Position numbers and translations under genes: made by a program. The notes beneath the pieces are model-generated. The model ran no database searches. It had not been told where the DNA came from and saw only the letters and a list, made by a program, of their open reading frames with translations. A stretch of 64,000 bases of DNA from Ceratodon purpureus (Eukaryota; Streptophyta; Bryopsida; Pseudoditrichales; Ditrichaceae), in assembly GCA_014871385.1 (NCBI GenBank), contig CM026431.1:5555089-5619088 (forward strand), written 5' to 3'. Below, one piece after another: positions 1 through 53,648 of the stretch. How positions within the stretch are numbered: position 1 is the stretch's first letter; each line of letters opens with the position of its first letter.

Positions 1-414
1 ACGGAAGAATTAGTTTTTAATTGTAGTCAAAGAGTAGAGTCACCGCAGCCGTCTATCAGATTTAATGACTCTTTGACGGGGGAGTCAAATTCTCAATCAG
101 ATTTACGTTTCAACTCCGACGAGGTTAGTATTACTAAACCGTCTTAAATGTTGGGAATTCTTTATATTAATTCAATAATTTTAAGAGAAGATGATTTAGT
201 ATCAACTGAATTTAAATTAGGCAACTCCGTGAGGTCCCTCAATTATCACGCATTTTAAGTTAAATGGTTTGGGTAGGGTATCGAAAGGATAAGGGAAGTC
301 GATCTTCGAAGAAGGGTTTCAGTTCCTCAGGAGGGGTGCGACATCGAGCAGCTGCAACTCATTGCGAGGAGAGCAAGAAGTAGAATTCTAAGTGCAGGGG
401 AAGGGGGGGAGGCA

Positions 415-3400
415 ATGGCAGCAAGGTTTGACCAGATGAGGGGCGGAGAGGAGGAGCAAGGCGACGCAGAGGCTGCGGGGCAGGCGTATGTGGAGATGGA
501 GGCGGACGTGGGGGGAGGTGGACAGGAGCAGCCCGAGCTGGTTGGGGATGCGAGTGAGGATGTGGAGAGGACGGACGGGGACGATGGAGAGGAAGACCCC
601 GAAGATGGAGACCAGGTATGGAATCATGAACTCCAGAGGAGGTTGACAGTACCACGTGTTTGAATGATGAGGTTTTTGAATGGGGTGTTGTACGGATCTT
701 GGGGTTTAGTCAACAGTACGGCTTAGAATATTTTGAGAAATGAGTTGGGTTCGTACGTTATGGGGAAATGGGTTGTGATTAGTTGGGTAACGTTCTTTTT
801 GTGTTTGGGAAGTGGGTTTCTGGGTTGTGGTTTGTGGGTTGTGGTTGGTGGGTTGGGTTTGGGTTGATTGCATTATCGTTGTTGATTTTCGCTCCTTTTA
901 AGCTGCTCTGGGCTGCTTGGATTGACTGATCGCTTGCGCTTGGGATTACGAGGCACTGCCTTCATCTGGACTTTGGAGAAGATTTCATTTACGATTTGAG
1001 TGTGTCGTGGTCGAAATCCTGTTGCTGACCATTTTCGAAGAACTTGTGCGAATTCGCGAATGCTTGGATCGACTCATTCGAGCTGATATTCAACTTCGAG
1101 GGAGCAGCTTTAGAGGTTTCTGGTTGGGGATTTATGTTGGAATGTTTTTTATAAGTGAGGGTTCGATAGTTTACTGCTGATCGAAGCTGCCTGAACAGCG
1201 TGGACGGTTGCTCGGAGCTCCTTGTACAGCCTGCAGAGGCTTACCCTCGTGGTGCCCAGCCCCCGGCTTACAATGTTCAGGTGACTTGAATGTTGCACAG
1301 TTATGTAGTCCATTGTTACGCAAATATAATGGAAGCTTTAGTTGATACACCGTTCGTCTCCTGGAATCATCAGTCGGCACGTTCTTGTATTCGTCTTCTT
1401 TAATGGTTCACCTCATGCCCTGCTCACGTTGTTCCTTCTCTGTGTTCCGCTACCGCACCTGATTAGCTTGCACTTTCTTGTTCTGGGTGCTTTCTTTCTC
1501 TTTGCGAGAGGCTTGTGAAGTTCAGGGTAGGACTTTGAATGCTATATCATTTTGTATGGCATTGCTTGACGTTTTCGCAAATCCTCCAATACGTCGATCT
1601 GCTGCTCATCATCAGCAGCAGAATGCTCATTTTGCTGATCCAAGCCATACAACACTTGAATGAGGCGTTTGATGTGCGGTCGATGGTTGGGTGGGGGCTC
1701 ACCATTTAATTTGGGGATTTTGTGATAAGTTTTTTTGTTTGTGTGGTTGGTGACAACGTGTGATAATGAACTGCATCATTGCTCAGAACTTGTTAGTTAT
1801 ATTATCAATATTTTGTAGAATTTGAGAATTTTCATTATTATTTTTTATAAATTTTGAGTTTTTAAAAAACCCCGAACCTACTGTCGTCAACGACAGTAGG
1901 CCGGGGCACACCAATGAATTTGGGCATTTTGTGATTTGTTTAATTTTATTTGTGGTTGGTGACATTATGTGATAATGGACTGCGTCATTGCTCAGAACTT
2001 GTAAATAAAATTTTGAATGTTTTGTAGATTTTGAGATTTTTCTTTATTATTTTTTTTAAATTTTGAGTTTTTAAAAAACCCCTAACCTACTGTCGTCAAC
2101 GACAGTAGGCCGGGGCACACCAATGAATTTGGGCATTTTGTGATTTGTTTTAATTTTTTTTGTGGTTGGTGACATTATGTGATAATGGACTGCGTCATTG
2201 CTCAGAACTTGTAAATAAAATTTTGAATGTTTTGTAGATTTTGAGAATTTTCTTTATTATTTTTTATAAATTTTGAGTTTTTAAAAAACCCCGAACCTAC
2301 TGTCGTCAACGACAGTAGGCCGGGGCACACCAATGAATTTGGGCATTTTGTGATTTGTTTTAATTTTTTTTGTGGTTTGTGACATTATGTGATAATGGAC
2401 TGCGTCATTGCTCAGAACTTGTAAATAAAATTTTGAATGTTTTGTAGATTTTGAGATTTTTCTTTATTATTTTTTTTAAATTTTGAGTTTTTAAAAAACC
2501 CCTAACCTACTGTCGTCAACGACAGTAGGCCGGGGCACACCAATGAATTTGGGCATTTTGTGATTTGTTTTAATTTTTTTTGTGGTTGGTGACATTATGT
2601 GATAATGGACTGCGTCATTGCTCAGAACTTGTAAAAAAAATTTTGAATATTTTGTAGAATTTGAGAATTTTCATTATTATTTTTTATAAATTTTGAGTTT
2701 TTAAAAAACCCCGAACCTACTGTCGTCAACGACAGTAGGCCGGGGCACACCAATGAATTTGGGCATTTTGTGATTCGTTTTAATTTTTTTTGTGGTTGGT
2801 GACATTATGTGATAATGGACTGCGTCATTGCTCAGAACTTGTAAATAAAATTTTGAATGTTTTGTAGATTTTGAGAATTTTCTTTATTATTTTTTTTTAA
2901 ATTTTGAGTTTTTAAAAAACCCCTAACCTACTGTCGTCAACGACAGTAGGCCGGGGCACACCAATGAATTTGGGCATTTTGTGATTTGTTTTAATTTTTT
3001 TTGTGGTTGGTGACATTATGTGATATTGGACTGCATCATTGCTCAGAACTTGTGAATATAATTTTGAATATTTTGTAGAATTTGAGAATTTTCATTATTA
3101 TTTTTTTTAAATTTTGAGTTTTTAAAAAACCCCGAACCTACTGTCGTCAACGACAGTAGGCCGGGGCACACCAATGAATTTGGGCATTTTGTGATTTGTT
3201 TGTCTTTATTTCTTTTGTTGGTGACATAGTGTGATAATGAAATGCATAATTGCTCACAATTTGTTAATAAAAATCAGAAATTTCGAAGATTTTCGGTATT
3301 TTCTTTATTTATTTCTTTTATTTTGAATATTTGAAAAAACCCAAACCTACTGTCGTCAACGACAGTAGGTTTGGAGCACTTCAATAAATCGAAAATTTTA

Positions 3401-6400
3401 TATTTGTTTGTCTTTATTTCTTTTGTTGGTGACACTGTGTGATAATGAAATGCATAATTGCTCACAATTTGTTAAATAAAATCTGAATTATTTTTTGATT
3501 TTCAGTATTTCCTTGATATTAATTTTTTATTTTGAATTTTTGAAAAACCCCAAACCTACTGTCGTCAACGACAGTAGGCTGGGGGCACTTCAATAAAGTC
3601 GGGGATTTTATATTTTTAATTCTTATTTTTTTTTGTTGATGGCATTGTCTGATAATGAACTTCATCATTGCTCACAACTTCTTAATTTAATTTTGAGTAT
3701 TATCTTATTAATTTTTTAAATTTTGAAATTTTTAAAAAACCTTCAACCGGGATTGCTTGAGAATGCTTTGTTTTCATTGAAGTTTTGATGGATTTTATTG
3801 ATTTTTTAAAGGGTTTTATTGAGAATTAAAAATAAAAAAGAAACCCCATTTGGATTTTTGTGTTATGTTAATGCGATTGTCTCACAAACTCTGAATGAAA
3901 AACTGAATTCTTGAGATTCATTGTACGTATTTGAATGTTTTTTATTTGGTTTTTTGAAAAAATAAAAAAACCCCAAACCTACTGTCGTCAACGACAGTAG
4001 GCTGGGGGCACTTGAATAAAGTCGGGGATTTTATATTTTTAATTTTTATTTTTTTTTGTTGATGGCATTGTCTGATAATGAACTTCATCATTGCTCACAA
4101 CTTCTTAATTTAATTTTGAGTATTATCTTATTAATATTTTTTAAATTTTGAAATTTTTAAAAAACCTTCAACCGGGATTGCTTGAGAATGCTTTGTTTTC
4201 ATTGAAGTTTTGATGGATTTTATTGATTTTTTAAAGGGTTTTATTGAGAATTAAAAATAAAAAAGAAACCCCATTTGGATTTTTGTGTTATGTTAATGCG
4301 ATTTTCTCACAAACTCTGAATGAAAAACTGAATTCTTGAGATTCATTGTACGTATTTGAATGTTTTTTATTTGGTTTTTTGAAAAAATAAAAAAACCCCA
4401 AACCTACTGTCGTCAACGACAGTAGGCTGGGGGCACTTGAATTAAGTCGGGGATTTTATATTTTTAATTTTTATTTTTTTTTGTTGATGGCATTGTCTGA
4501 TAATGAACTTCATCATTGCTCACAACTTCTTAATTTCATTTTGAGTATTATCTTATTAATTTTTTAAATTTTGAAATTTTTAAAAAACCTTCAACCGGGA
4601 TTGCTTGAGAATGCTTTGTTTTCATTGAAGTTTTGATGGATTTTATTGATTTTTTAAAGGGTTTTATTGAGAATTAAAAATAAAAAAGAAACCCCATTTG
4701 GATTTTTGTGTTATGTTAATGCGATTGTCTCACAAACTCTGAATGCAAAACTGAATTCTTGAGCTTCACTGTACGCATTTAAATGCTTTTTATTTGGTTA
4801 TTTGTAAATATGAAGTTTAAAGACTTTGTCGAATTTTTTTATTTTTAATTTCTCACTTTGAATGTTTGTGTTATGGAATGCAATTACGCTCACAAAGTCT
4901 TGATGAAAATTTTATATGTTTTTATGAGTTTTTAATATTTAATTGGGAGCCCTGTCTAGGTTGTGGTTTGATTCTTCATAGTTGTAAGTTTTTCTAATAA
5001 TTATCAATTTCCTCAGGACGTTGATGGTGATCATCTGGGGAGCGAACGTCAAGACCCTACGCCAGCAGAAACTGAGGTATTTCATTCAATCTTCAATTTA
5101 TATTCTTTATTTATGTTCATGATTCTGAGTTCTATTCGCCCTCATCCCTTCTTTGTTTCCTACTCTTTTAATTATGGAAGTTAATCCTCTCTTTATTTCT
5201 CCTACTCTAGGTATCATCCGATGCTCCTGAGATGTCGGCCACCTCTCCCATTTCTGTGATCAATGTTTCCGATCTATCGGATTCGTTTGACCAGCCCTAT
5301 TGTACCTGTGATGTAGCCAACCCTGTAGGTGTGGATAGTGGACCTCTCGAGGTCCACTCTCCTCAGTACATGCCTACCTCGCCAGTGTACATGCCTACTT
5401 CTCCAGTGTACATGCCTACATCCCCGGTTTATGAGCCAACCTCCCCGGGCTATATGCCCACGTCTCCTCCACAGGGCTCCCCGCCGATGTCTCCACCCTC
5501 TCCTTCCTCGCCGATTAGAGTCAGGAGGCCAGCCCATGTTGTCTTTGCTCTGCCGGTTATTCTGCCGTGCCCTGTCCAACAGACCAGGCGATTTTGGAGG
5601 AGGCGCCGTCACTGGAACTGTAGACAGTCTAAGGAGTACTATAGTCGTTCCTCACGTAGATAGTTTTATCAATCACAGATGATGATTGAGTTGTTAAAAG
5701 AGAGATGACAGTATGAAGATATATTGTTACTTTCTTTTACATACTTGTCAACTTTGCATGACTTTCTTCGATTGTGCTTGTTCTCCTAATTTGCGTACCT
5801 TCTGGCAGGTTACGCAAACACAAGATGTGTTGGTGAAACCATCTTGTCCGTTAAACTTGAAGACTGCCACAGAAGGGGAATTGAAACATCAAACCTTATA
5901 CAAGGTGAACACCAACGCCGTCATCAACAAGCTCAGGATCAAGCCATCGCAGAAGTCCCGAATGTCGGTGCCCCTGTGCAGGATGATCCCAATGGCAAAG
6001 GTCAGACCAGTGGGCGAAGTGGGTGTGCAGCATTTGGAGCGGGAGTTCGTCAAGGGGTATAGAGATGGCGACCGCGTCATGTACATCTCCATGTACAACA
6101 ACGAAGAGCAGACACGAGATGTTACGGATGAGGTCATGGCTAAATGGAGCCCATTGTGGAGGGACGCGAATGATGCATTTGAATCTGAACTTCTAAATGA
6201 CGAGGACTGGTCGCAATTCTCGGGGAAGATGTTTTTTGTCTGGGAAGGAAACCATCGCCTCTCAGCATGGCTTCGTCATATCAACAAGCATCATGCAGAC
6301 GACCCGTCATGGCACATATCTGTGAACTGCATAGTACTCGATCCCCGTGGCCATGTTGGCAATCTTCTTCACGCAATGCATGACATCAACTGGTTAGTAC

Positions 6401-9400
6401 TTGTTTCTTTTTTCCTGTTTTCCCATTTGTTACTTTATCTCATCTCTTTTATTCATCATACGGTTTTGGTTCATTTTCAGGTCGACTGAGAATGACCACG
6501 TCAAGAGTAATCTCCCTGCAAAACTATTTCGAATCCGCTCTTTCGGAATTATGAAGCTGGAGGAATTCAAAGACCTCCTCAGTCCTGAAGAGTATGACGC
6601 ATGTTTGAAGAACAAGCCACCTAATCCCTCCTGGTTTCCCTTGACAACTAAAATTTTCATCGCCTTTTTGTACCGAGTAAGTCCTACATCCTCTCTCTAT
6701 TTGCTTCTTATTATTCAATACTCATGAAATTTCCTAAGTCTGAATTCTCTTTCTACAGCGGGAACTCGCTGCGGCCTCCGATGAAGCAGCCAATGCCTAC
6801 CGCATGAAGACACCCGAGGATGAGCAGTCTGCAAGTGCAGTTTGGGATGTCATGAATGAGGCATCAGAGAGAATGGTCGAAGCCATCAAGAAGAAGGACT
6901 TTACCAAGTACTTGGCCATTGCAAATCCCAAGAATGGTGACGACTTCCTCAACGAGGTGACTCACTGATCATTGTTCAATTCACTGTTTCCCATGACTTC
7001 CATAATTTCTGTATTTATCTTTTTCAAACTTCGGTGCTTCTTGCAGATTAATCGCCATTTCAGTCTCAACAATAAGCCTGAGATGTCAGTGGATAAGCTT
7101 CAGAAGATTGTTCCTGCGGCCGTTGAGCCCAAATACAAGGCTCGTTGGTTGAAGTGGTGGAACTCATCCCCGAGTGCTCGAACGTCTTACAGATTTCTGC
7201 CATCTGAATTCAAGGACACCGAATTCGACCCATGGTTGAACAAAGCTTCATTCTGGGCTGGGGTAATTTTCATAAAAAACCCATTCCAATTCCTTGTTCC
7301 TTTAAATTTTTACCATATTCATTCTTCGATGCTACTTATATGAATTTTGTATTACAGTTGGAGGAAGCCGTCATCCACGAAGTCGAAGACGTATTCAAGT
7401 CTGAGAACCTCGATATCGATTGGATGGCGTTTCCTGATGTCCAACAGCCGGGCGATTTTGTCGAGAGTTCACGTATTCTCTTGTGGGACAAGGCCTTCCC
7501 TACGTTCATTGGAAAAAAAGCTGAGAAGCACTTCGACAAGAAGTCCAACTTCGCTAAATTCCCGGGAACCGCGCAAGTTGTCAAGCGGGTTACTTACCGG
7601 TACATTACCTTACTTAATCTCATTTCCATTTCATAGTTTTCTTTGTAATTGTTTTTTATACTTACCTCCTTCTTGTCTTCCCATAGGTACTTCAAGCGAG
7701 AGCTTGTTTTGAAGGGGGCCATCACCGTTCAGCAACTCCCCATGTACTTCAAGCTTTGGACGCAGACATCCTCGGACGAGTGTATGTACTCTCCTCAGCA
7801 GATAAAAAGGTACAAACCTGCTCACCTGGATGCTGGATGCTGGTATCTTGATTGTATTGGTGGTTTCACTATTGACTCCGAGGCGGAAGTCAAGATGCTG
7901 CACGATGGGGGTACGGTTGTGGTGGAGGACTCCGTGGATGATGCAGAAGGTCGTGAAGGAGAGCAGGATCAGTCTTCTGCTCCACCACCGAAGAGAGGGA
8001 GAGGAAGGCGACTGAAATCTCTGCGTTCTCAGTCAGAGGCATCACAGCAAACTGGTGCGGAGTCTTCCGCGCCAGCTGAGAAGGCACCAGAGCCGTCTCC
8101 GGGTGTTGTTGTTACCAACCCTTCTCCAGCTTCTTCGCCGGCTCCTTCATCGATCAGTGCTTCGGAGATCACCAGAGGTCTCCTTCAGCAGAGGAAGGCC
8201 AAACTATATCCTCAAACAACTTCTTCAGCTGGAGCTTCGATTTCCACACATGTTTCCGTCTTCAACTCATCTGTGGATTCCTTGTTACGGCGAAATAGGA
8301 GACAGGAGAATAAAGGGGGCGACCCGGATTGGATCAAGACTCAAGACTTCATTCGCAAGGTTTGTTCGTATAATTTGACATCTAATGGATTCTGCCAACT
8401 CTACTCGCTATGTAGTTACTAACTCTCCTTTCTTGTTTCCTCTAGTTTGGAGCAGGCCGCGAAAACGAAGTTCCGGACCGGTGCAAACAAGAGAACCATC
8501 TGGGAGTCGACTTGATCATTGCCGACATCCCTGAGAATCTTCCCGTCCCATCCGTTTCCATTCCCCCCACGAGTATTCCGCCTTGGAACTCTCGCTACAA
8601 GGATTATTTGTACGACATCTTCCATTTTGCAGATGAATTCCTGCAGAAAGATGGTGCCATCTGCCTCATCTACAACACTGATCAGAAGCTGGCTAAGGAT
8701 ATCGAGGAAGAAGCTGCTGCTGGAGGATACGTGCTGTTCAAGGACTGGTGGGGTGTCAATGTACTCGGCCTGACTTCTCCTACGAACCCCGAGAACTTGG
8801 TACTTTTCCTAAACATGCCCTTCTCTTCGGTTACTGATAACCCTTCCGCTTAATTTTACTCACTAGTTCTGCTTGACTGCAGACTATGCGGTTCTGGATT
8901 CGCGTCTACGTTCGTAGTGGCAGTACTTTCTCCTTCCAGACGAAGAAGGAAGACCTGATACATGGGCTCCTCAACATTACCGAGAGTGATGCCATTTTCA
9001 ACTTCACCGATGCCGAATCTCAGCTCATGAATGGGAAGGTGCCGTGGAGAGGCCCAAGGGAGAAATCCCCTGAGATGATGCAGAACATCATTGAGGAGCT
9101 GTCCAAGCCCGACGACATAGTCGTTGACTGGAATGCTGGGACAGGTATCTCTCTTACATATCTCTGCTTCATTTTTCCTCTCGTTTTTTGCAAAGTTTCT
9201 CATTTCTTTGTTTCTCTTCGAGTTTCAGGGGCCTCCATCAAGGCCGCCAAGGCTGTTGGTCGTCACATTCTCGCTTTTGAGGAGGACGAAGCCATATTCA
9301 ACGCCCTTCTCAAACCATCCGCCATGGGCCCTCCTAAACATCCAAGGCCGGCAGCAACAGGTGAAGCGCCTCCAAAGAGAGCAAGACCTGACAAGTGGTG

Positions 9401-9761
9401 TACGTCTTCTACTCTTCGTTCACATTATCCAAGCATTACTTCTCTTTCCAGCTCTACGTACAAGATCTAACCACAATCGGTTCTCTATTGCAGAGTAGTT
9501 TCTGCATCACCGCCACGTGAGCCAAGAGCAGTGTCCACTCCATCGTGGCGTCTTCATTCCAGCCCGATTCAGCCTTTTATACTTCCGGACTACGCAGAGG
9601 GCTTAGCACAGGCGTTTCAATCTGGAGCCCTTACATATGTTCCTAGTCGGCCAACTACTTTTGATCCCAGGGCCCTTCTATTCGTCGATGACGAGGCGGT
9701 AGAAGGAGATTCAGAGTCATCTAGTTCTGAGAGTGGAAGTAGCGATGGTAGCATGTTCTGA
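415..9761 (+). CDS. ParB-like / degenerate N4-N6 DNA methyltransferase fusion with Pol II CTD-like heptads
   Basis: Proposed exons: 415-615, 5017-5076, 5211 to about 5573 (donor uncertain), 5809-6392, 6481-6676, 6759-6956, 7047-7262, 7358-7599, 7687-8359, 8446-8799, 8883-9144, 9229-9399, 9496-9761; about 1,260 residues. Phases agree at every join from 5809 on. Order: acidic N-terminus; five heptads of the form YMPTSPV (5367-5470); a ParB/sulfiredoxin-like domain containing [11 protein letters not shown] (exon 5809-6392); a charged Ser/Pro-rich linker; then a methyltransferase fold in the permuted beta-class order. IIADIPE (8518-8535) sits where DPPY would be, and [12 protein letters not shown] with downstream [15 protein letters not shown] sits where DPFxGSGTT..AA..LGR..IGIE would be. 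ParB plus N4/N6 methylase fusions are familiar in bacterial mobile DNA. The altered catalytic motif argues against ordinary methylation, so reader or scaffold roles are possible. Joining exons 1-2 to the rest is inference. The C-terminus ends in an acidic Ser tract. Confidence 0.75.
1780..3600. repeat. 210-bp tandem repeat with an invariant 24-bp palindrome
   Basis: Nine units with a period of 209-211 bp. Each carries an identical palindrome with arms CCTACTGTCG and CGACAGTAGG around a TCAA loop, at 1877, 2086, 2296, 2506, 2716, 2927, 3137, 3346 and 3555. The rest of each unit is AT-rich and varies more, with recurring TGATAATG and CATTGCTCA motifs. Just outside the stem, units alternate between CCCCGAA and CCCCTAA (1877 to 3137), a dimeric higher-order pattern. 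Most copies also have an outer CCCC/GGGG pairing. Confidence 0.95.
3601..4800. repeat. 424-bp extension of the palindrome array
   Basis: The same 24-bp palindrome recurs at 3978 and 4403, now 423-425 bp apart. Each long unit adds a segment containing ACCTTCAACCGGGATTGC and AAAGAAACCCCATTTGG, present three times (near 3740, 4164 and 4588). The third long segment (4560-4800) is not followed by another palindrome. The long unit looks like a 210-bp unit enlarged by about 214 bp and then amplified. Confidence 0.9.
5367..5470 (+). other. RNA polymerase II CTD-like heptad block within the coding region
   Basis: Five consecutive heptads read [35 protein letters not shown]. Relative to the Pol II consensus YSPTSPS, positions Y1, P3, T4, S5 and P6 are invariant, Ser2 is Met or Glu, and Ser7 is Val, Gly or Pro. 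Nucleotide similarity between heptads suggests recent tandem expansion. The block is embedded in a Ser/Pro-rich exon of the ParB/methyltransferase-like gene, not in an RPB1 gene. Confidence 0.9.
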
Positions 9762-10279
9762 GTTTGAAGGAGGCTTCGGTCTTTCATTGTTTTCATTGGA
9801 TTTGATTTGATTTGATTTAATTGGAGTTCATTGCGTAATCCTTCGTCTAATCTACTACCCCAAACCTAAACTTGTTATGATTCTCATATCCAATTTGTCT
9901 CCGTGTTTGTAAAGGATGAAATGTCACAACTGTAATGCTCAAAATATAATATGAAGAATGAAATGTTACAAAAGAAAGGCTCAAATATAATATTGTGCTG
10001 TTATTTATATTTTACTCATTCAAAATCCCACATTTCCATAGCCATGTTACCTATTCTTCACTAGGTGTACATCTTGGTTTCTGCTACTCCATTATTGTAC
10101 ACGAACTCTGAAATATTCCACGGACTTCTAAGACCATTTCTTATAGATGGTTTTTCTTTTCTTATTTCTAGAATCATCTATATTATCTAAAACCATCCTG
10201 CTGGAATACTCGTATCTAGATCCAATGACTGACCAAATCTTAAGGATTGTATTCGAACACCCCACTAGACTTCACAGTA
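9762..10279. other. Intergenic, 3' flank of the methyltransferase-like gene
   Basis: AT-rich sequence with no coding signal I trust. A GATTTGATTTGATTT run lies near 9799. A segment at about 10066-10145 recurs, diverged, at about 10945-11030 in the same orientation (both contain TCTTGGTTTC and GAAATATTCCA), bracketing the minus-strand ORF between them. Confidence 0.6.
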
Positions 10280-10663
10280 CTAATCCTTCGAAGGATATAC
10301 AGTCCAACTCTTGTCCATATCAAACCAGCAAGTTTCGCCATCCGATATGATCACTTCGGGCAGCTGAACAACTGGTTTCTCATCGACGTTCGATAGCAAT
10401 GGATACGGGATTAGGGACAACTCCATAATACGGAGAAGCTCATTGGTACAAAGCACTGTCCAACGCCATTCACCTTCACCAACATGGAGGCTTCCGATGT
10501 GCCTAAACGGTGGCAGGTCCATGCCTCGTTCCCTGGAGCGCTCCACCTCCAGCAGCCACGGCCGCAGCTCCTCATAACTCGCCGGTGCCTTTGGGGGCAA
10601 ACCTACAGCCGCTCTCGTCCTCCTGGATCTCGCATTACACACCTTCGGCATCGCGCAACACAC
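10280..10663 (-). CDS. Uncharacterised protein, family A copy 1
   Basis: A 127-residue open frame on the minus strand. I do not recognise the family. Its middle (ASYEELRPWLLEVERSRERG, then GEWRWTVLC, then MELSLIPYPLL) aligns with the plus-strand ORF at 11516-12140 (ASQLREWLHVVEAWRASR, then APWFWSVGC, then LEDLSGIPFPLP). This is a conserved pattern of about 75 residues with shared Trp, Arg and Pro positions. Conservation between two inverted, diverged copies supports real coding, but the start is uncertain and a 5' exon may be missing. It may also be a gene fragment. Confidence 0.4.
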   Translation of the reverse strand: MCCAMPKVCNARSRRTRAAVGLPPKAPASYEELRPWLLEVERSRERGMDLPPFRHIGSLHVGEGEWRWTVLCTNELLRIMELSLIPYPLLSNVDEKPVVQLPEVIISDGETCWFDMDKSWTVYPSKD

Positions 10664-11515
10664 TGAATTCTTGTAGTCTTAAAACGTTACAGGCAAGCTT
10701 GCAGATTGACATCCCCGAACTCCTACGCTACCTTCGCATACAGCACAGCATGCCAAGGACTGTGTCACTATCCAAATACGCCATCTAGAGACAAGCTCAA
10801 GAAACCAAGAGTGACCTCCTTCTCTGGAACCCAGCATACCAAGTGTTGTTTGATGATGAAAATCTCCTACTTGTATCACTGAAATGAAGATGCTTTGTTG
10901 CCTACGAAGAGAGAGTAATCTTCGATGAAGACAAGGACTCTAACAAGGTATATCTTGGTTTCAGCAGTTAAGATATTATACACGAATTTTGAAATATTCC
11001 AGGAAGTTTTCAAACCTTGCCTCCTTTACGTTCTTTCAAATTTTATTTTTTCCTTGTGCATTTACATAATCCTATGAAAGAATTATTTGTTTGGTCTAAA
11101 ACTTAACGCCTGATCATTATATCTTGTCTAAATCCATGAGAAATATAACAAAATATATGCATGACGTCATCATGACATCAGCCCTAATTTGTATCTTAGA
11201 GAACAAACGTAACAAATTTTTACCAGAGATAACCCTGATTTCCACGGTAATATACTATTTTTCTAAAAATAGTGTCAAAATTCCGCCTTAATTTAGTAAT
11301 TTTCCACGGTTATAGGGTCTACTTTGCTTTTGGAAATTTTCCTAATTCTCAATTCTGTGCTCTCCATTCTGCGCTCACCGCTCTCCGCTCTACGCTCTCC
11401 GCTCACGTACGAACTTTCCCCGGTCCCCATCTGTGGAGCCGCGACAATACACCGTGTATGCCTCATCCGGGAAGCTGTGGAGAGGGGTTCGGTGCGTCGG
11501 CAGTCCCCAGTCGCC
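10664..11515. other. Intergenic between the two family-A copies
   Basis: Non-coding as far as I can see. It includes the second copy of the ~80-bp direct repeat (10945-11030), an AT-rich stretch, and a CT-rich low-complexity run (11360-11405, repeated CTCTCCG and CGCTC motifs) just upstream of the plus-strand ORF, probably a promoter or 5' leader. Confidence 0.5.
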
Positions 11516-12384: not shown

Positions 12385-13890
12385 AGTTAGAGGCCCCCAC
12401 TCCCTCGCTAAGGAGACCCCCCCTCGAAACATGCAGTTCCTGTATACGGAGCATTCGCCATCTGCACGCCGCAAATGCCTCGGAGACCTGGGACAGGGGC
12501 CAACGGTTTTGCGGCAGACAAGACCAACTGCCGTGAGTGGACAGGGTTCGGCTGAAGGGGACACTACCCTCCAATCGCCATGACCCCTTCCTTCCCCGGG
12601 TCCCCTGCCTTTCCCTCTCCCGTTCCCCCCGTGTGCACTCCCTAGTTAGGTGGTCGCTCGCCAAGTTTCCAGGAGACCGTGGTCGCTCCCAATGGGGATG
12701 GGTTCAGAGGATAGTTGCAGCTGCCGGAAAGATTAGACAGGTGGCTGTTTTTTAGTGGAAGGCTCTGAGAGTGAAGGAAAACTACGGTGTGAGGCACTTC
12801 TACAGCCTTGCAAACGTATTTTGAACCGCAGCGAACAAGTTTGGGTGTTGCACTTTGATTTTTTTGCACCATGCCGATTTATATGTGCGTGGGAGGAATC
12901 TGACCGTCGTGATTGTAAAAATTCGATTTCTACCTTGTCCGTTCCAGTCTCCGAAGTTCAGGGTGGAACCGTATACCTCAGCCTGTTTTCTTGACTGAGA
13001 ATGCAATATCAATTACGAAAAAATTATTTTTTGTGTAAATCTTCGCTCAAGTGTTCCTTCATTGTGTTAGGTAGCGCGTCCAAGGCGGTGCAGGTTTTTA
13101 GCATTTTTTCACACACCTGTCAAGAACAATTCCTTGACGACCTCATAACCGTATGCAATTTTTTTCACTCTATTTCATTCCCAAATACACATCAATATCT
13201 GCCACCACCGGGCCAAACACTCCGAAATTAATGGGCCTTGCGATACATCACTGAGTCCTCTTCAATTTGCAACGATCAGATTTGTAAATCAGCTTCTGTG
13301 TTCGACATTACCATGTGATTCAGGCGCCGGGGTCACAAAAAACCACAAACAGCCAGAAACGACCCGGTCACTAAAGGGTTAATCCCTCCCGCGACTCGTT
13401 TATGCAGAAGCCTTGCATGCACGAGAACTGCATACCAAAAACCAACACTAGTCTATGAAACCAGCCCCATCTACCATATTCGTACATTTTAGAACCTGCG
13501 ATCTACAGAAAACTGACCCCACGGGTTCATTGTATTGTATACCCAAAACCAACTCGTACTTGAAATTCAGATTATCTACATAATGAAGACATTTCCATAA
13601 TTATAACATCGACGAGAGGGACATGCTCTCAGTTCAAACCCCTGGTGTATAAATTCGCCGTATGTACGCAGTTCCGTATGATGAAGACAGCTTCAATGAC
13701 AAACTAATTAAGGAATAGTGCAGAGGACCAGAATGGAGAAGTCCAGAAGAACTCAAACTCGAAAGAGCTTCGAGAGAGACGAAGAACAAGAGCGACGGAG
13801 AAGAGCTATGGAGGCCTGACTGTGGAGCTGTTCAACATACGTATGTGATAAATTGTTTCGTCGTGAGGGAAGTCGGCAGGCTGAGTTGAC
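12385..13890. promoter_or_regulatory. Intergenic and probable lipase promoter
   Basis: No convincing gene. A TATA-like GTATAAATT lies at about 13648, roughly 240 bp before the lipase ATG, followed by a purine-rich leader (13720-13810). The leader contains short upstream ATGs, for example near 13679, which could act as small upstream ORFs. Confidence 0.35.
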
Positions 13891-16800
13891 ATGGAGAGTT
13901 TTCTGAGTTTCAGGATGAAGACGGTGCTGTCGATGGCTGAGTTGTACGTGTGCGTGCTGCTGTTAGCGGTGCTGGTTCATGGCGCGTGCGCGTCAAGCTT
14001 TTGCCAGCAAGTCGTGGAGCCGCTCGGCTACGGTTGCAGAGAATTTACCGTGAAGACGGAAGACGGTTTCGTGCTCGCTATGCATCGGCTGAGCCGGATT
14101 AGCTCGTTGGTTGCGAGTGGTGGACGAGCGAGTGCTCCAAGTGTGAGCGTCTCTCCCGCGTTCGCTCCAGCGGTGTTGCAGAGTGGCCAAGGTGTTTCTC
14201 AATATCCTGAGGGTCACGGTCAAGCGCCATCTGCGATGGTGACTCCCAGCGGTAGGAGTAGCCTGGTGAGCGTTAATGAATCAACAATGCTGACAGTTCC
14301 TTCAAGTGTAGCGGCGCATTCGACTTCTGCGGCAAAGCAAGCACCGGCAGTTCTCGGAAACAGGAGCACAGATGTTCATCATCATTCCGATTCGGCTAAT
14401 TCATCTAACAGGAGGCGACGACAGCATCATCCCTCGCAGGGATCATCTCCAGGCCAGCCAGAAGCTTTATTGCCTTCAAACAGGACGGCAGGCGCTACTT
14501 CTCCAACGTTGAGTATAGTTGCACCAGGTCCTGCTCCAACCCGGACCACACAAAGTCCATCGCCGTCTTCGGGACGAAAACAAAGACAGAGTTCCACCGG
14601 CGGCGGTTCTCGTTCGAACTACACAGCTAATCCAGAGGTACGGTCCGTTTTTGACAACTCGTTGCCATTACACCAGGTTGTGCTTGTTTCGTTAGTGGAC
14701 AAAATTACTTTCTCTTTTACCTACATGGATAGTGATGTTCGAGATAACGCCTGGGGTTACGCATGTCGACTCCGCAATCGTGGTATATCTGCCAGAAGTT
14801 TCAATAAATAGTTAATGTTCCCCGGAGAAATGACATTAGTGACATTTCAAGCCATCCTGGAATTCTTGAAGAGAGAGTACACTCCGACTTCACAAATGCT
14901 GTTTTCCAAGAGTATCCTAGTATGCCACAGTATGTCACAATCCATTTTACAATATGACTCATTCGTGTTCAGCAATCGCAGTGCGTTTGATAATCATTGT
15001 CCTCATTGCAGGCCGGAAAGGGCTCCCCGGTGTTACTTATGCATCAAGAGTTTTTGAATGGCGATACCTGGTTCGAGTTCGTTGATTTGGAAAACCGAAG
15101 TAGCAGTCTGCTGCCGATTATGCTGTTGAACGACGGTTTCGACGTCTGGATTGGCCATCAACGTGCGACGTACTGGAGCCGTGGCCATACTCACCTCAAG
15201 TCCACGGATCGGGTAGGTTACTCTTAAATTCTTTCATGTTTGATCAATGTAAGCGCATGGATATGATCAGGGTTACCTGCTTGGTGTTCGGAAAAGTTAT
15301 CGTTCAATAGCCAAGTCTATGCCCGCTCTACGTTTTCTGTTTGCAAATGAATTGCAGCTTATGAGTCCTATCAAACTTTCTCAGCATGAGCTTAGAAATC
15401 TGTGGTCACTAAATTATTCTCGGTGCATCTAATTGCTGGATCACTGTGAAGGACATGAATTCACGACAGTTACACTTAAAGGTTCGCTCATTAGTGTCAA
15501 TGCAATGCGTTGATGATTGAACATTTCTAAAAAATGAGGAGGGATAATCCTGCTGCAAGTATGACGACACAGAGGGTTACTCAATCGGCTGCTCAATATT
15601 TGTATGCAGGAGTACTGGAACTGGTCGTGGGATCAGCATGCACAGTATGACCTCCCCGCGCAGGTGCTTTACATTTCTACGGAGACGAATCAACCTGTTC
15701 ACTTCATTGGCTTGTCGCAGGTAAGCTTTATAACTGACCTAATGTACGAGGTAGGGCCATCATTTGTCAACCTTTTGGTTATCCGAGCTGTTTCATGTCT
15801 TAATGCTGCACTTGATATCTATTCGGGTGACGTCGAATCCCAACTTTCGTTTCGTGGCTAAGATAATCTGCTCGGTAATGATGCAGCCTCTTTAACATAC
15901 AGGCTCTCTCGTGTTGGTCTCATTGCAGGCTGCAACTGTTGGTGTAGCAGCGGCTACCGATCATGAAACAGCTCAGATGATTCGAAGTTTGACACTCATC
16001 GGCCCTACCGCGTACCGGGGATATACCAATTCGTTGGTGCTGGACGCTTGGGCGTACATTTTCGGATATGCTATTGACTCGGTGAGGATGTACTACCAGT
16101 GAATGTTGTTTGGTCTGCCATAGATTTTTCTGTCAGGCGGTTAAAACTGCATTAATCTTAGCAGCCGTTGACTAGGAAGTAGTAGAGTTCGCTGAGTTAC
16201 TGGCATCTAAAGTGTACTGTCTAACTTCTCTGTAATTGAAACTTTCAGTCCCATTGGTGAGAGTCAATAAGCAGTTGCTGATAGATTGGGCATTGTCTGG
16301 CTTTGCACTGTTGAGATTATGCAGGAATATTATGCGACGGGCTTTCAAAATGGAGCGTTCAATTATTCCACGTGAGTGTATTCTGTGATCTTTTGGCTGT
16401 GGAATATCTCTTGTGCAGATGGGCTCATCAAGTTGCCAGAATACAACTATGTCTGAAATCTAGTCTCAAATTACAGCGGCCTCATGGGGTCAAGCTGCTA
16501 GCTCGAATGATCAATCTCAGTTACACCTGTTGCGTAGGGTAGTTTAGTCCTTGCATATATTTTCCGGTTTCAATCCTGAATGTCGTCGGATCTACCAGCC
16601 GATTTTTTACATGCACATCTTGACTCTTGAACTTCTTTGCATTTCCACTATTTACCGACATTCACAATAACCTTGAAACACATGCAACAGGGAATTCCCT
16701 CAGACAGGGTCAGGAGTCGGCAATACAGCAATCTCTGTAATATCAGGTGAGAATCTTCTGATGAGGATCTTGCCATGTGCAGGCTCCCATTCTTTTGCAA

Positions 16801-49886: not shown

Positions 49887-49952
49887 TTTAGCCTTTTTTT
49901 TGGTTTTCTTGAATAAACTCGTTTTTTTTTTTTTCGAAGATCGATTTGTGTG

Positions 49953-52900
49953 ATGGCTTCTGTAAGAGTATCCTCTCGTTCAACGAAAGGGAAGAGAGGG
50001 GTGAGAGTCACGGCTTTTGAGCCTTTTCTTGTCTCAACGGGTGTATCCCCTGTACCGAAGAAAAAGAGAGGGGGGAAGAGGTCTGTGAAATCAGTCATCG
50101 CTGCTAAGGATGATTCGTCAGCACCTGCTGATGATGATTCTTTGGCATTTCCGTCTGGTCAGGAGGATTCTTTAGTGATTCCTTCTACTGATGTTGATTT
50201 TGCTCCTACAGTGACAGGTTGTGCCGTAGGTGCAGACATGTACCAACATGTGTTTGGTAGTCTTTTTGATCTTTTGCCACCAAGTCCAGTGAGTGAACGA
50301 GAGATCAATGACTTCTTCACTGTTCCTGATGTTCGTGGTACTTCTCCTGTAACAACTGTTGGTCCGAGTGTAAATCTTGAGAGTGGGAATCTTGTGTGTG
50401 GGACTGTTGAGTGTGGGAATGTTGAGAGCGTGAATGCTGGATTTAGTGACTCTTCGGATTTGGAATCTGATCGAGTTCTTGCAGTTCCTGTTGTTGATCA
50501 ACAGCCGCCAGTTCGAAGTACGTCAAGTCAGGCCTGTACGTCAAGTCAGTCCAGTCAGTCCCGTTTTCTTCCCCTTGATCCAACACTTGTGAATCGTGTC
50601 AAGGAACTGAAGAGAGGGAAGAGTTTTAAAAATAACAATTGGGCCATAAATCGCCTTAATGCATGGAGAAGTGAGGTTGGTAAGGAGCTTACCCCTATTG
50701 ATAAAATGCCGTATGAGGAGTTGTCTGGTGTCCTGCTAGAGTTTTTTCTATGCATCTGTAAGGATTCCGGTGAGAGGTATCCATCTGGATCTCTCAGAAA
50801 TTTTCATAAGTCATTTAATCGCATCCTCAGGGATGCTCAGAGACTTCGAATTTCTCAGACGAAAGTTAATGAGGAACCATTCTCCATTGAAACGAACCCA
50901 TACTTTGTGGAGGTAAATTCTGCAGTGGTTGCCGCTATGGAGAAGTCTAGAGATGCAGGTGCTAACAAGCAGAGGCGTAAGCCAAAGTGTTTATCCTTTG
51001 CTGAGGAGGCGTTGATCCTTGGTCATGCATCACAGTCACTCTCCAGCAATGTTGGTGTCCTGAAGAGAATCTTATGGTTCAACACATCACAGTTTATGAT
51101 TCGTGGGAACACTGAGATGTATAAGTTGAGGTTCAAAGATTTTACTCAAGGAATAGACGATCACGGTCGATGTTATGTTGAGTAAGTTCCTGTAACAGTT
51201 CACTTGTAAGGAGCTTTGCTTTTTTCACTAGAGGACGTTAGCTATGCTTTTCTTTGAAATCATGTCGACTTGTACTATTGCCGCATTTGGATAACATAGT
51301 AATTTCGCTGGTTGCTGATTTATAGTTCATGGGCCGTTAAAAATGTACATGAAAGTGTACACGGTCTGCGATCCCTCCGAGTGTACATGACCCTCATAGG
51401 AGGTCGTCCTGTTGATTCGTGTGGATATCGGCCACATGGGTCGTTTTTGAAGTCCTATGCACCATCCAGTATAGGAAGGCTGCACCATTTCAAGCTTTTT
51501 GCCTCTTGAGAACCATTACTGCACTGGCTGGCATGAGAGAGGCGCGCTGGAGCTTAATTGCCACACGTTTGAATTGCTAGGTTGAAGTTGGATGTGTTAG
51601 ATTGAGCTACGTGTGCCTTTCTACCTGTAGCTGAAATTAGCGAACGCTCGATTGTTCTGAAGCTTAACTTGTAATCTGTGCAGGGCTACTGCAAGAGATG
51701 CTTAAGGATGACATTTTCTGTGCTATGTGAATGCTAGGACTATACACTTGCATAGTTTCTGGTTAGAGCATATGTAACCAGTTTGACTTATCAATTTGGC
51801 TGGTTACTAATTGTTTACTAACTGTTTGTCTGTGCTTTTTTTTTAGGTACAATGAGCGCACCTCAAAGGCTTATGCTGTAGCCCTCAACCGCTGTCAGGA
51901 CGAAGATTTTCGCCCTCCTGTTCGTGTCTATCACCCTGCGGTGGTGGAGACTTGGAGAGTATATTCCCTCCACTTGGCTGATGATATGAAAGAGGGAAAC
52001 CTTTTCTTGTCTCCCATTCAACCTCATCCGATCAGTTCTCAAGTGTGGTATAAGCATACGAATGTTGGTGAGAAGAAGCTGCGGCAGTGGTTGAACCACA
52101 TGGCAAGAGAGGCAGGCATTGCAGGTGATGTTACAAATAAAAGTGGCAGACGTACTGGTATCACGAGAATGGCGCTAAAGGATACTCCAAGGGACGTTAT
52201 GTGTCAGATAACTGGGCACAAGAGTGCTTCATCACTTGATAGGTGATTAATTCTTCTGTCCAATTGATTAATGCTTTGCGTACTTTGAGTTCACGTACTT
52301 TGGATAAGTCTTTCTGTAATTTTGGATTCCTTGTCGTTAGTCTCTAAGATGGGCTTTTGTTTTGTCGTTAGTCTCTAGTTCCATCCTGTGTGGAGAGTTT
52401 TGATTCTACTTGTAACTCTGATTAATGCTGTTTGGATTGATGCTGTGTGGTTTTCTGTGGCACAGGTATGATGACACTTTGTTGTTGAAAAGGGAAGCGG
52501 CTTTGAAGGCTATTGCGACAGATAGCGAAACTGGGGATTATCACCAAATCAAAAAACAGCTTTTTAAAGAGCTTAGTAATGGAGGGAGTGGCTCCACTTA
52601 TTCTCAGTCTAATAGTCTTGCTGTTGTCCCGTATTTGCCTGAGTTGCCATCTCCTCAGATTACTGATGCAAGATTATTTGCAGATTTTCAGATTCCTCCA
52701 ATTCGTAACTCTGTTTCTCAGAGTTTCTTTACTCCTGGCCAGTTTTCCAGTCCATTACAATGCCTTCCCTGCAATGCATTCTCTGCAATGCATTCGAGTG
52801 CAGTTGATTGTGCAGTTGAGGCTGTACCCAGCCTTGGGCATCAGGCTGTACCCAGCCTTGGGCATCAGGCTGTACCCAATTTTGGGCATCAGGCTGTACC

Positions 52901-53648
52901 CAATTTTGGGCATCAGACTGGACCCAATCTTGGGCATCAGTCTGGACCGAACCAGCATCAGGCTGGACGCTACGCTGGACCGAACCTTGGGAGTACCTGT
53001 TCGTTTTCTTGTGAAATTCATTGCCCTCGGCAATTTTATCAGGACAAGAATCTTGATCCTCTCAGACCTGTGAGGAATTCTGTTGGCCCTCAGCCATTTG
53101 TTCGCCCAGTATATAAGAGTGTCCCTAAGAAGATACCTGCGCAGTTTGCACGCTCTCCCGGGCAAATTCTTCGAGATGTTGAGTTTTTACCGAGTGGTAA
53201 TGATAGATTTATGTACCGTCCAGAGCACGGTTCTACTAGCACTAGTAATGTCTCAGAAACTTCTCGTTCAGTTCCAGATGCTTACGATGGTGAGCTAGAT
53301 CAAATAATTCTGGATTATGACTTAGAGCTTTTTGAGCGTGGGAAGATTGTGAGAGCAGGTCGTGAACAGGTGAAGGAGAAAGAGTCAGATGCAGATTCGG
53401 GGCTGGGAGCTGTTGTGAAGCCATATACTTCTGCGGTTCAGCAGCAACCAAAGTTGCAGGTTCAGCAGCAACCGGAGTTGCAGGTTCAGCAGCAGCCCGA
53501 GGTTCAGGTGCAGCCACAAGTGCATCGGAGTCAAGTAGCTGCAGCGCCATTTAGCAATGTTAGTCAATTCATACAGATTAACAACACTATGGATCTGAAT
53601 TTAGAGAAGATTATGAGAGGGTTTTTTAACCCCAACAATCAGAATTGA
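49953..53648 (+). CDS. Crypton/ZMYM-type tyrosine recombinase (DUF3504-like)
   Basis: Exons 49953-51181, 51847-52242, 52466-53648 give 935 residues in frame. The disordered N-terminus has a basic patch (PKKKRGGKRSVKS). A core-binding helical region follows (NNNWAINRLNAWRSEVG, YEELSGVLLEFFLCICKDSG, YPSGSLRNFHKSFNRIL), then the catalytic-like domain: WFNTSQFMIRGNTEMYKLRF (box I Arg384), NKSGRRTGITRMALKD (Lys508..Arg511, where HxxR is usual), ITGHKS (His534) and LDRYDD (Tyr543). This architecture is that of Crypton recombinases and the ZMYM/QRICH1 proteins derived from them. Four of five active-site positions are kept, so activity is plausible but unproven. The C-terminus is low complexity (AVPNFGHQ octapeptides, Gln-rich repeats). 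It is either a resident mobile element or a domesticated gene. Confidence 0.85.
52810..52960 (+). repeat. 24-bp in-frame tandem repeat
   Basis: Units of the type GTACCCAGCCTTGGGCATCAG encode the octapeptide AVPSLGHQ or AVPNFGHQ about six times in the recombinase C-terminal exon. The first two pairs are identical at the DNA level, indicating recent expansion. Confidence 0.9.

Follow-up and report, generated by a model that had tools for sequence, protein, structure and literature searches.

We analysed a 64,000-nucleotide stretch of the moss Ceratodon purpureus (contig CM026431.1, positions 5,555,089 to 5,619,088 of the forward strand), which is called the window in the following and from whose first letter all positions without a contig name are counted. 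The window contains a spliced gene at 5809-9761 on the plus strand, coding for a protein that combines a ParB/Srx-like motif with a methyltransferase-like domain. A first-pass annotation had interpreted this gene as a bacterial or phage module captured as a host gene. This is not supported: the gene belongs to a transposon and is present in many copies, and the element around it has terminal inverted repeats, is flanked by a 10-bp target-site duplication and includes a transposase-like partner gene. We are almost certain that it is an accessory gene of this transposon.

Transposon ends, copy number and partner gene

The element is 18,016 bp long (C11:5548494-5566509). Its first 6,595 bases precede the window, and the remainder occupies window positions 1-11421, as read from direct and inverted repeats. 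The right terminal inverted repeat (the last 60 bases, 11362-11421) matches the left end at 50 of 60 positions without gaps, and it is followed by a 10-bp target-site duplication, GGTCCCCATC (11422-11431), with the same 10 bp present at the left end. The window copy (W) and two close genomic copies (X and Y) agree up to position 11421 and diverge immediately beyond it. Both ends were read in two copies, W and X. Copy X is 18,156 bp long, its inverted repeats match ungapped at 49 of 60 positions and it is flanked by its own 10-bp duplication, GGTTCTGGGG. Mutator elements (MULEs) are recognized by terminal inverted repeats together with a target-site duplication of 9-11 bp, and the ends of both copies conform to this rule. 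For these two copies the inverted repeats and duplications also rule out a segmental duplication.

The 362.5 Mb assembly (151 contigs, the largest, C6, with 110.5 Mb) was searched for further copies. The 195-amino-acid ParB-like exon has at least 150 scored copies among 1,907 candidates, distributed over all 13 large contigs. Among the 150 scored copies, 46 (the one in the window included) are 96-100% identical and the weakest is 85% identical; an internal stop is present in 13. At least 150 copies, inverted repeats and target-site duplications together rule out a single captured host gene. A transposon of the KDZ type was considered as well, such elements being carriers of DNA-modifying genes; no such match was present among the Pfam hits. 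The list of 150 ParB exons includes 41 on C6, which is perhaps a sex chromosome. This is no enrichment, because it about equals the share of C6 in the assembly (30%).

Just left of the window lies a two-exon gene for a protein of approximately 1190 amino acids, encoded on the opposite strand and divergent from the methylase gene. Reading the protein by eye revealed the motifs YDATY, ADN, CxxH, NLAETVHNKW and CTCPAF..CKHLY, which would represent a zinc-binding stretch at the N terminus, a DDE domain of the Mutator type and a SWIM finger at the C terminus. We infer that the transposase is Mutator-like. Because the Pfam models for MULE and SWIM give no match to the partner protein at E <= 10, we base this designation on the motifs that were read and on the element's ends, with their inverted repeats and 10-bp duplication. 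The DDE region has at least 150 scored copies among 2,043 candidates, all of them 99-100% identical. A listed transposase is located divergently upstream, at a distance of 5.6-18.9 kb, of at least 35 of the 150 listed ParB exons; one listed exon has a transposase on its own strand. Random placement yielded a mean of 0.84 and a maximum of four divergent pairs (200 trials). The 35 pairs are a floor, because both lists hold 150 entries of longer sets.

Gene model and domains of the predicted protein

The span 5809-9761 divides into ten predicted exons and nine GT..AG introns, which are 82-99 nt long; joined, the exons give a frame that is open to the TGA at 9759-9761. The first of these exons (5809-6392) encodes the ParB/Srx-like module with the motif WEGNHRL (GNHRL at 6247-6261). 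It is followed by coding exons at 6481-6676, 6759-6956, 7047-7262 and 7358-7599, and by one at 7687-8359 that ends in a low-complexity linker. The methyltransferase domain is distributed over three exons: 8446-8799 contains the position of motif IV, 8883-9144 contains motif X and the start of motif I, and 9229-9394 continues downstream of motif I. The last coding exon is located at 9494-9761. In the copies on C13 and C3 the homologous exons join to 3159 nt, as in the window, without an internal stop, and the proteins differ from the window protein at 12 and 15 amino acids, respectively. Because both copies join to an equal length without internal stop, the exon model is not a product of chance. 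The spliced gene predicted by the first-pass annotation is thus borne out, with a lower number of introns than the approximately 12 that had been given, since nine are located within this span and 11 in a longer model.

The longer model codes for a predicted protein of 1139 amino acids and includes two additional in-frame 5′ exons on the same strand. The probable first coding exon (415-615) encodes an acidic N terminus and is open and in phase. It is 98% identical and in frame in X and 75% identical over a part, with in-frame gaps, in Y; a counterpart was not found in locus L117 (C7:4652000-4661999), which contains a truncated copy. The probable second coding exon (5017-5076) is in frame and is conserved in X, Y and L117.

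According to its sequence, the protein includes a bacterial-type amino-methyltransferase domain with permuted motifs. The Pfam profile PF01555 (N6_N4_Mtase) matches amino acids 966-1021 with 34.4 bits (E 2.9e-8; cut-off 26.7), and it matches all eight members of a family alignment (A2) at E <= 1, with 8.9e-10 as the best value. PHROG methyltransferase families match the window protein down to E 2.2e-9. Comparison of a profile of the eight family members with solved structures identified DpnA (6.5e-8), CcrM (1.9e-6) and MboIIA (0.0031). The DpnA match covers mainly the C-terminal part, and the other two cover most of the domain in one stretch each: profile positions 26-230 align with CcrM 52-249 and positions 20-230 with MboIIA 25-245. 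These two one-stretch alignments place motif IV before motifs X and I and confirm the permuted order proposed earlier. A tblastn search of phages with the methyltransferase domain found 371 records at E <= 10, the best among the 20 listed having an E value of 8e-7. The family profile had no match in the viral contigs. In a profile-profile comparison with one narrow viral family of 38 ParB-methylase proteins, the methyltransferase part matched weakly (E 0.0011, 56 columns) and the result for the ParB part was negative. Altogether, a module of bacterial or phage type that carries introns in a plant nuclear genome is supported. Two PF01555 matches of another kind were observed at C1:5958254 and C5:15306119 (profile positions 29-190 and 29-187, in frames of 567 and 569 amino acids).

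The catalytic motif of permuted amino-methyltransferases is (D/N/S)PP(Y/F/W), and their motif for S-adenosylmethionine is FxGxG. Neither is present in its canonical form in W, X or Y, which confirms the altered motifs reported for the window: all three copies have DIPE (8524-8535) at the catalytic position and NAGTG as part of DWNAGTG (9126-9144 and 9229-9230) at the other. A second, divergent lineage of the gene was found at 32 places, and 21 loci were read, which are the basis of the counts given for it here. All 21 loci have D[QT]P[FY] as motif IV and xASTG as motif I. Judged from these residues, the two lineages have each altered a different hallmark motif, and the methyltransferase domain of the window lineage is probably no longer a normal catalyst.

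In the second lineage, the ParB part has a median ratio of nonsynonymous to synonymous substitution rates (dN/dS) of 0.053, and two methyltransferase exons have medians of 0.047 and 0.089 (61, 57 and 54 of 210 pairs, respectively, had a usable dS). Pairs with a dS <0.35 gave medians of 0.131, 0.047 and 0.098. Among the 21 ParB parts, that of L102 is interrupted by a stop and that of L098 is incomplete. Comparison of the window copy with X and Y yielded a dN of 0.005-0.006 and a dS of 0.023, which are ratios of about 0.21 and 0.26. These comparisons provide strong evidence in the second lineage, and thin evidence in the window lineage, for selection keeping the protein. One second-lineage match of approximately 21 kb between C1 and C13 can be read either as a segmental duplication or as a transposition, because no element ends were reached.

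For the N-terminal part, GNHRL is invariant in all 11 sequences of a second alignment (A1). In the second lineage the box reads WDGNHRL in 20 of 21 loci and WNGNHQL in the remaining one. In the ParB/Srx superfamily a GxxR box comes after a strand and before a helix and another strand, and the succession of predicted elements in the moss sequences appears, by eye, compatible with this. The proposed ParB/Srx module matches only at the level of the motif WEGNHRL, by which the label is plausible; no ParB model matched it. In the profile hidden Markov model check of the spliced protein, N6_N4_Mtase scored above its cut-off, but nothing named ParB matched in the Pfam, PHROGs, NCBIfam or PADLOC scans. 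The PHROGs matches of the ParB part were few and weak, and were to families without a name. DndB, which has been placed in the ParB superfamily (PMC10853773), matched weakly across the GNHRL region in three of 11 members (best E 0.01; 15.4 bits, compared to a Pfam cut-off of 29.1). This match is a hint at most, because unrelated families score equally weakly in the same scans (PtuB 0.0041, SatS 0.01 and E2F_TDP 0.054, each in three of 11 members). Searches of phages, plasmids, viral contigs and prokaryote genomes found no relatives of the ParB part, the few hits at E 0.2-9 being at chance level. Since none were found there while the methyltransferase matches phage enzymes, the capture might be old or its source might be absent from the sampled sequences.

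Palindrome arrays and other features of the window

The element contains an array of 11 palindromes, CCTACTGTCGT-CA-ACGACAGTAGG, at 1877-4426, which is in the first intron of the longer gene model, upstream of the exon at 5017. Each palindrome is 24 bp long and lies within a repeat of about 210 bp; the spacing in the window is mostly 209-211 bp and the last two steps are 423 and 425 bp. Three other loci contain 13, 12 and 16 palindromes. In a search that allowed four mismatches, the 52 palindromes of the four loci included one that is mismatched and three with a reversed centre. The locus with 16 palindromes is L117, where the truncated copy and its array are duplicated in tandem (4,361 bp, 99.98% identical, 5,639 bp apart). 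The palindrome copies are therefore not all independent, because part of these 16 stem from a recent tandem duplication. The 51 aligned repeat units, which were themselves selected by the palindrome, have a mean column identity of 0.994 in the palindrome and of 0.762 elsewhere.

Genome-wide, the exact 24-bp palindrome occurs 1,802 times and a control pattern not at all. All 50 palindrome sites that were listed are on C1, and each is located less than 6 kb from a listed ParB exon. In the stretch of C1 that was examined, five of the six listed ParB exons have an array. A palindrome is present within 20 kb of three of the 16 transposases listed there, and these three are paired with a ParB gene. 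Thus, in this stretch the array follows the accessory gene and not the transposase.

In the second-lineage loci (L091-L115) the palindrome of the window lineage was not found with up to four mismatches. These loci contain a dispersed palindrome, GTTCN6GAAC, which occurs 101 times in 21 loci compared to 2.6 expected from first-order simulations; this excess is descriptive, because the pattern was first seen in the very loci in which it was later counted and some of them are near-duplicates. The same pattern is absent from the 11.4 kb of the element in the window and occurs once in the other 51 kb. The palindrome of one second-lineage locus, L104 (CCGTTCGTCAACGAACGG), has the centre CGTCAACG in common with the window-lineage palindrome, and it is perhaps an intermediate between the lineages.

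Two small frames were also found in the element. The first (5211-5663, plus strand) is an alternative last exon or a separate reading with its own stop, and both frame and stop are conserved in X, Y and L117. It encodes five heptads (YxPTSPx) similar to those of the carboxy-terminal domain of RNA polymerase II, followed by a basic tail, and scores 19.9 bits with PF05001, slightly below the cut-off of 20.3. This frame may terminate a second form of the transcript, or it may code for a small protein of its own. The second frame (10283-10678, minus strand; 123 amino acids from the ATG) is located close to the right end of the element and is open in W, X and Y; a counterpart in L117 and a Pfam match were not found.

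Outside the element, a frame with a match to a lipase (PF04083) at 13885-14808 on the plus strand begins approximately 2.5 kb past the right end. Because of this distance, the insertion may sit upstream of a lipase gene. Long frames at 49917-53645 (plus strand) are located beside a weak match to tyrosine recombinases that is below the cut-off (Phage_integrase E 0.022, DUF3504 E 0.028); this region is possibly another mobile element.

Possible function of the protein and comparison with known systems

VANDAL elements are transposons of the Mutator type. In Arabidopsis, the VANC protein of VANDAL21 (Hiun) binds a short motif and demethylates its own family, sparing other elements; the motifs occur in fast-changing tandem repeats, both within introns of the accessory genes VANC and VANB and ahead of the transposase gene (PMC5735166). 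The outline of the moss element is the same: in both cases a constant transposase is accompanied by a more variable accessory protein, and short sites specific for a subgroup or lineage are located in tandem repeats. Because this outline is shared, we read the ParB-methylase protein as the putative self-recognition factor of the element. We lean slightly towards the view that the Mutator-like element encodes an accessory protein that would bind DNA, be VANC-like in action and be built on a degenerate ParB-methylase. Its ParB/Srx-like and methyltransferase-like parts would dimerise on DNA at the palindromic array upstream in their own element, and this binding would keep the element expressed or would mark its DNA, in the way that VANC acts on VANDAL21.

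The individual parts of this reading are not equally probable. DNA binding is plausible given the palindrome array beside the gene, and it is quite possible that the element's own palindromes are bound; that the protein counteracts silencing is a more tentative suggestion. Similarly tentative is a wider scenario, in which a DNA transposon took over a prokaryotic ParB-methylase that, together with a parS-like array of about 210 bp spacing, would serve self-recognition by loading on the element's own chromatin and protect it from silencing, with protein and site having co-diverged, so that two or more lineages differ in their palindromes. The spacing of about 210 bp corresponds roughly to one nucleosome repeat.

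The moss protein differs from VANC in several respects. VANC has DUF1985/DUF287 domains, and the available text of its description mentions no methyltransferase (PMC5735166); neither DUF1985 nor DUF287 is among the Pfam matches of the full moss protein at E <= 10. The VANC motifs have nine bases, whereas the moss sites are 24-bp palindromes. In addition, anti-silencing has been demonstrated for VANC, whereas for the moss protein it is proposed from sequence.

Several observations weigh against a VANC-like factor. Besides the negative Pfam results for the partner protein, the lack of a ParB match and the way in which repeat units and dispersed palindromes were selected, one of the six listed ParB exons in the C1 stretch is without an exact palindrome. 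No array is present within 20 kb of 13 of the 16 transposases listed there; not every copy therefore requires the accessory gene in cis. For the second lineage no element ends were found, and a near-identical transposase is located within 40 kb at only three of the 32 places, divergently in one of them. One second-lineage locus contains a weak match to the transposase N terminus at the same place and in the same orientation (30% identity, E 3e-4), and this lineage seems to have its own transposase. Furthermore, selection in the window lineage was seen in three copies only, and X compared with Y shows a dN/dS of approximately 0.5 with 11 changes.

The protein might instead be catalytically active and methylate N6 of adenine or N4 of cytosine, marking the DNA of its own element as retrotransposon DNA methyltransferases (DNMTs) can for CG. 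Such an enzyme would fit the profile matches, which span most of the domain in CcrM and MboIIA and the C-terminal part in DpnA, as well as the D[QT]P[FY] motif kept in all 21 second-lineage loci and the purifying selection there. We nevertheless regard it as unlikely: the domain is that of CcrM, DpnA and MboIIA, but the DPPY and FxGxG motifs are not intact, as a glutamate replaces the aromatic residue of DPPY in all three window-lineage copies and motif I is ASTG in all 21 second-lineage loci. There is precedent in retrotransposon DNMTs and in adenine methyltransferases of DIRS elements (PMC5890265). DNMT-bearing retrotransposons are described in the same source for the dinoflagellate Symbiodinium and the charophyte K. 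nitens (PMC5890265). In these, as in the moss, a mobile element carries a methyltransferase gene under purifying selection, but the enzymes are cytosine-C5 methyltransferases, some of them shown to be active, whereas the moss element is a DNA transposon with a relative of amino-methyltransferases.

Alternatively, the protein could be part of the transposition machinery; the palindromes would then be binding sites for the transposase or some other factor, or a structural feature of a satellite. The mudrB gene provides such a helper of transposition, and some transposases bind subterminal repeats. The divergent pairing with the transposase exceeds chance, which speaks for this alternative. Against it, the palindromes in the C1 stretch accompany the ParB-methylase gene, and 13 of the 16 near-identical transposases there have none within 20 kb, so that we consider a helper function improbable as well.

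A functionless passenger, carried by chance, would be compatible with the transposase copies without a nearby array and with the modest selection signal from three window-lineage copies; it is very improbable in view of dN/dS medians of 0.05-0.09 across diverged second-lineage copies and of intact 1052-amino-acid frames in three window-lineage copies. Just as improbable is a host gene from bacteria or phage that was domesticated as a reader, which introns, plant neighbours and altered motifs had suggested and which is already contradicted for the window copy by the copy number, the ends of the element and the transposase partner.

Bacteria and phages are known to have proteins in which ParB is fused to an adenine methylase, and one of these nicks DNA (PMC5512222). 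The order of a ParB-like part followed by a permuted amino-methyltransferase is the same in Bce_0392 (PMC5512222) and in the phage protein P0001. P0001 has 426 amino acids, compared to 1139 in the moss. Relative to the prokaryotic fusions, the moss protein has a long extra middle region, an acidic N terminus, introns and altered motifs, and no relative of its ParB part was found by sequence. A ParB-methylase gene in a plant transposon did not appear among the papers listed in searches of an open-licence library, judged by titles and the beginnings of abstracts.

Few known transposons carry genes for DNA modification or anti-silencing, and such cases show how genomic parasites handle silencing. 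The moss element would add a relative of bacterial amino-methyltransferases, in a DNA transposon, to the known list. The finding also serves as a warning that a bacterial-looking, intron-bearing plant gene may be a transposon gene. Removal of genes is routine in mosses, and with a visible candidate binding site that recurs 1,802 times genome-wide, self-recognition by the element is directly testable there.

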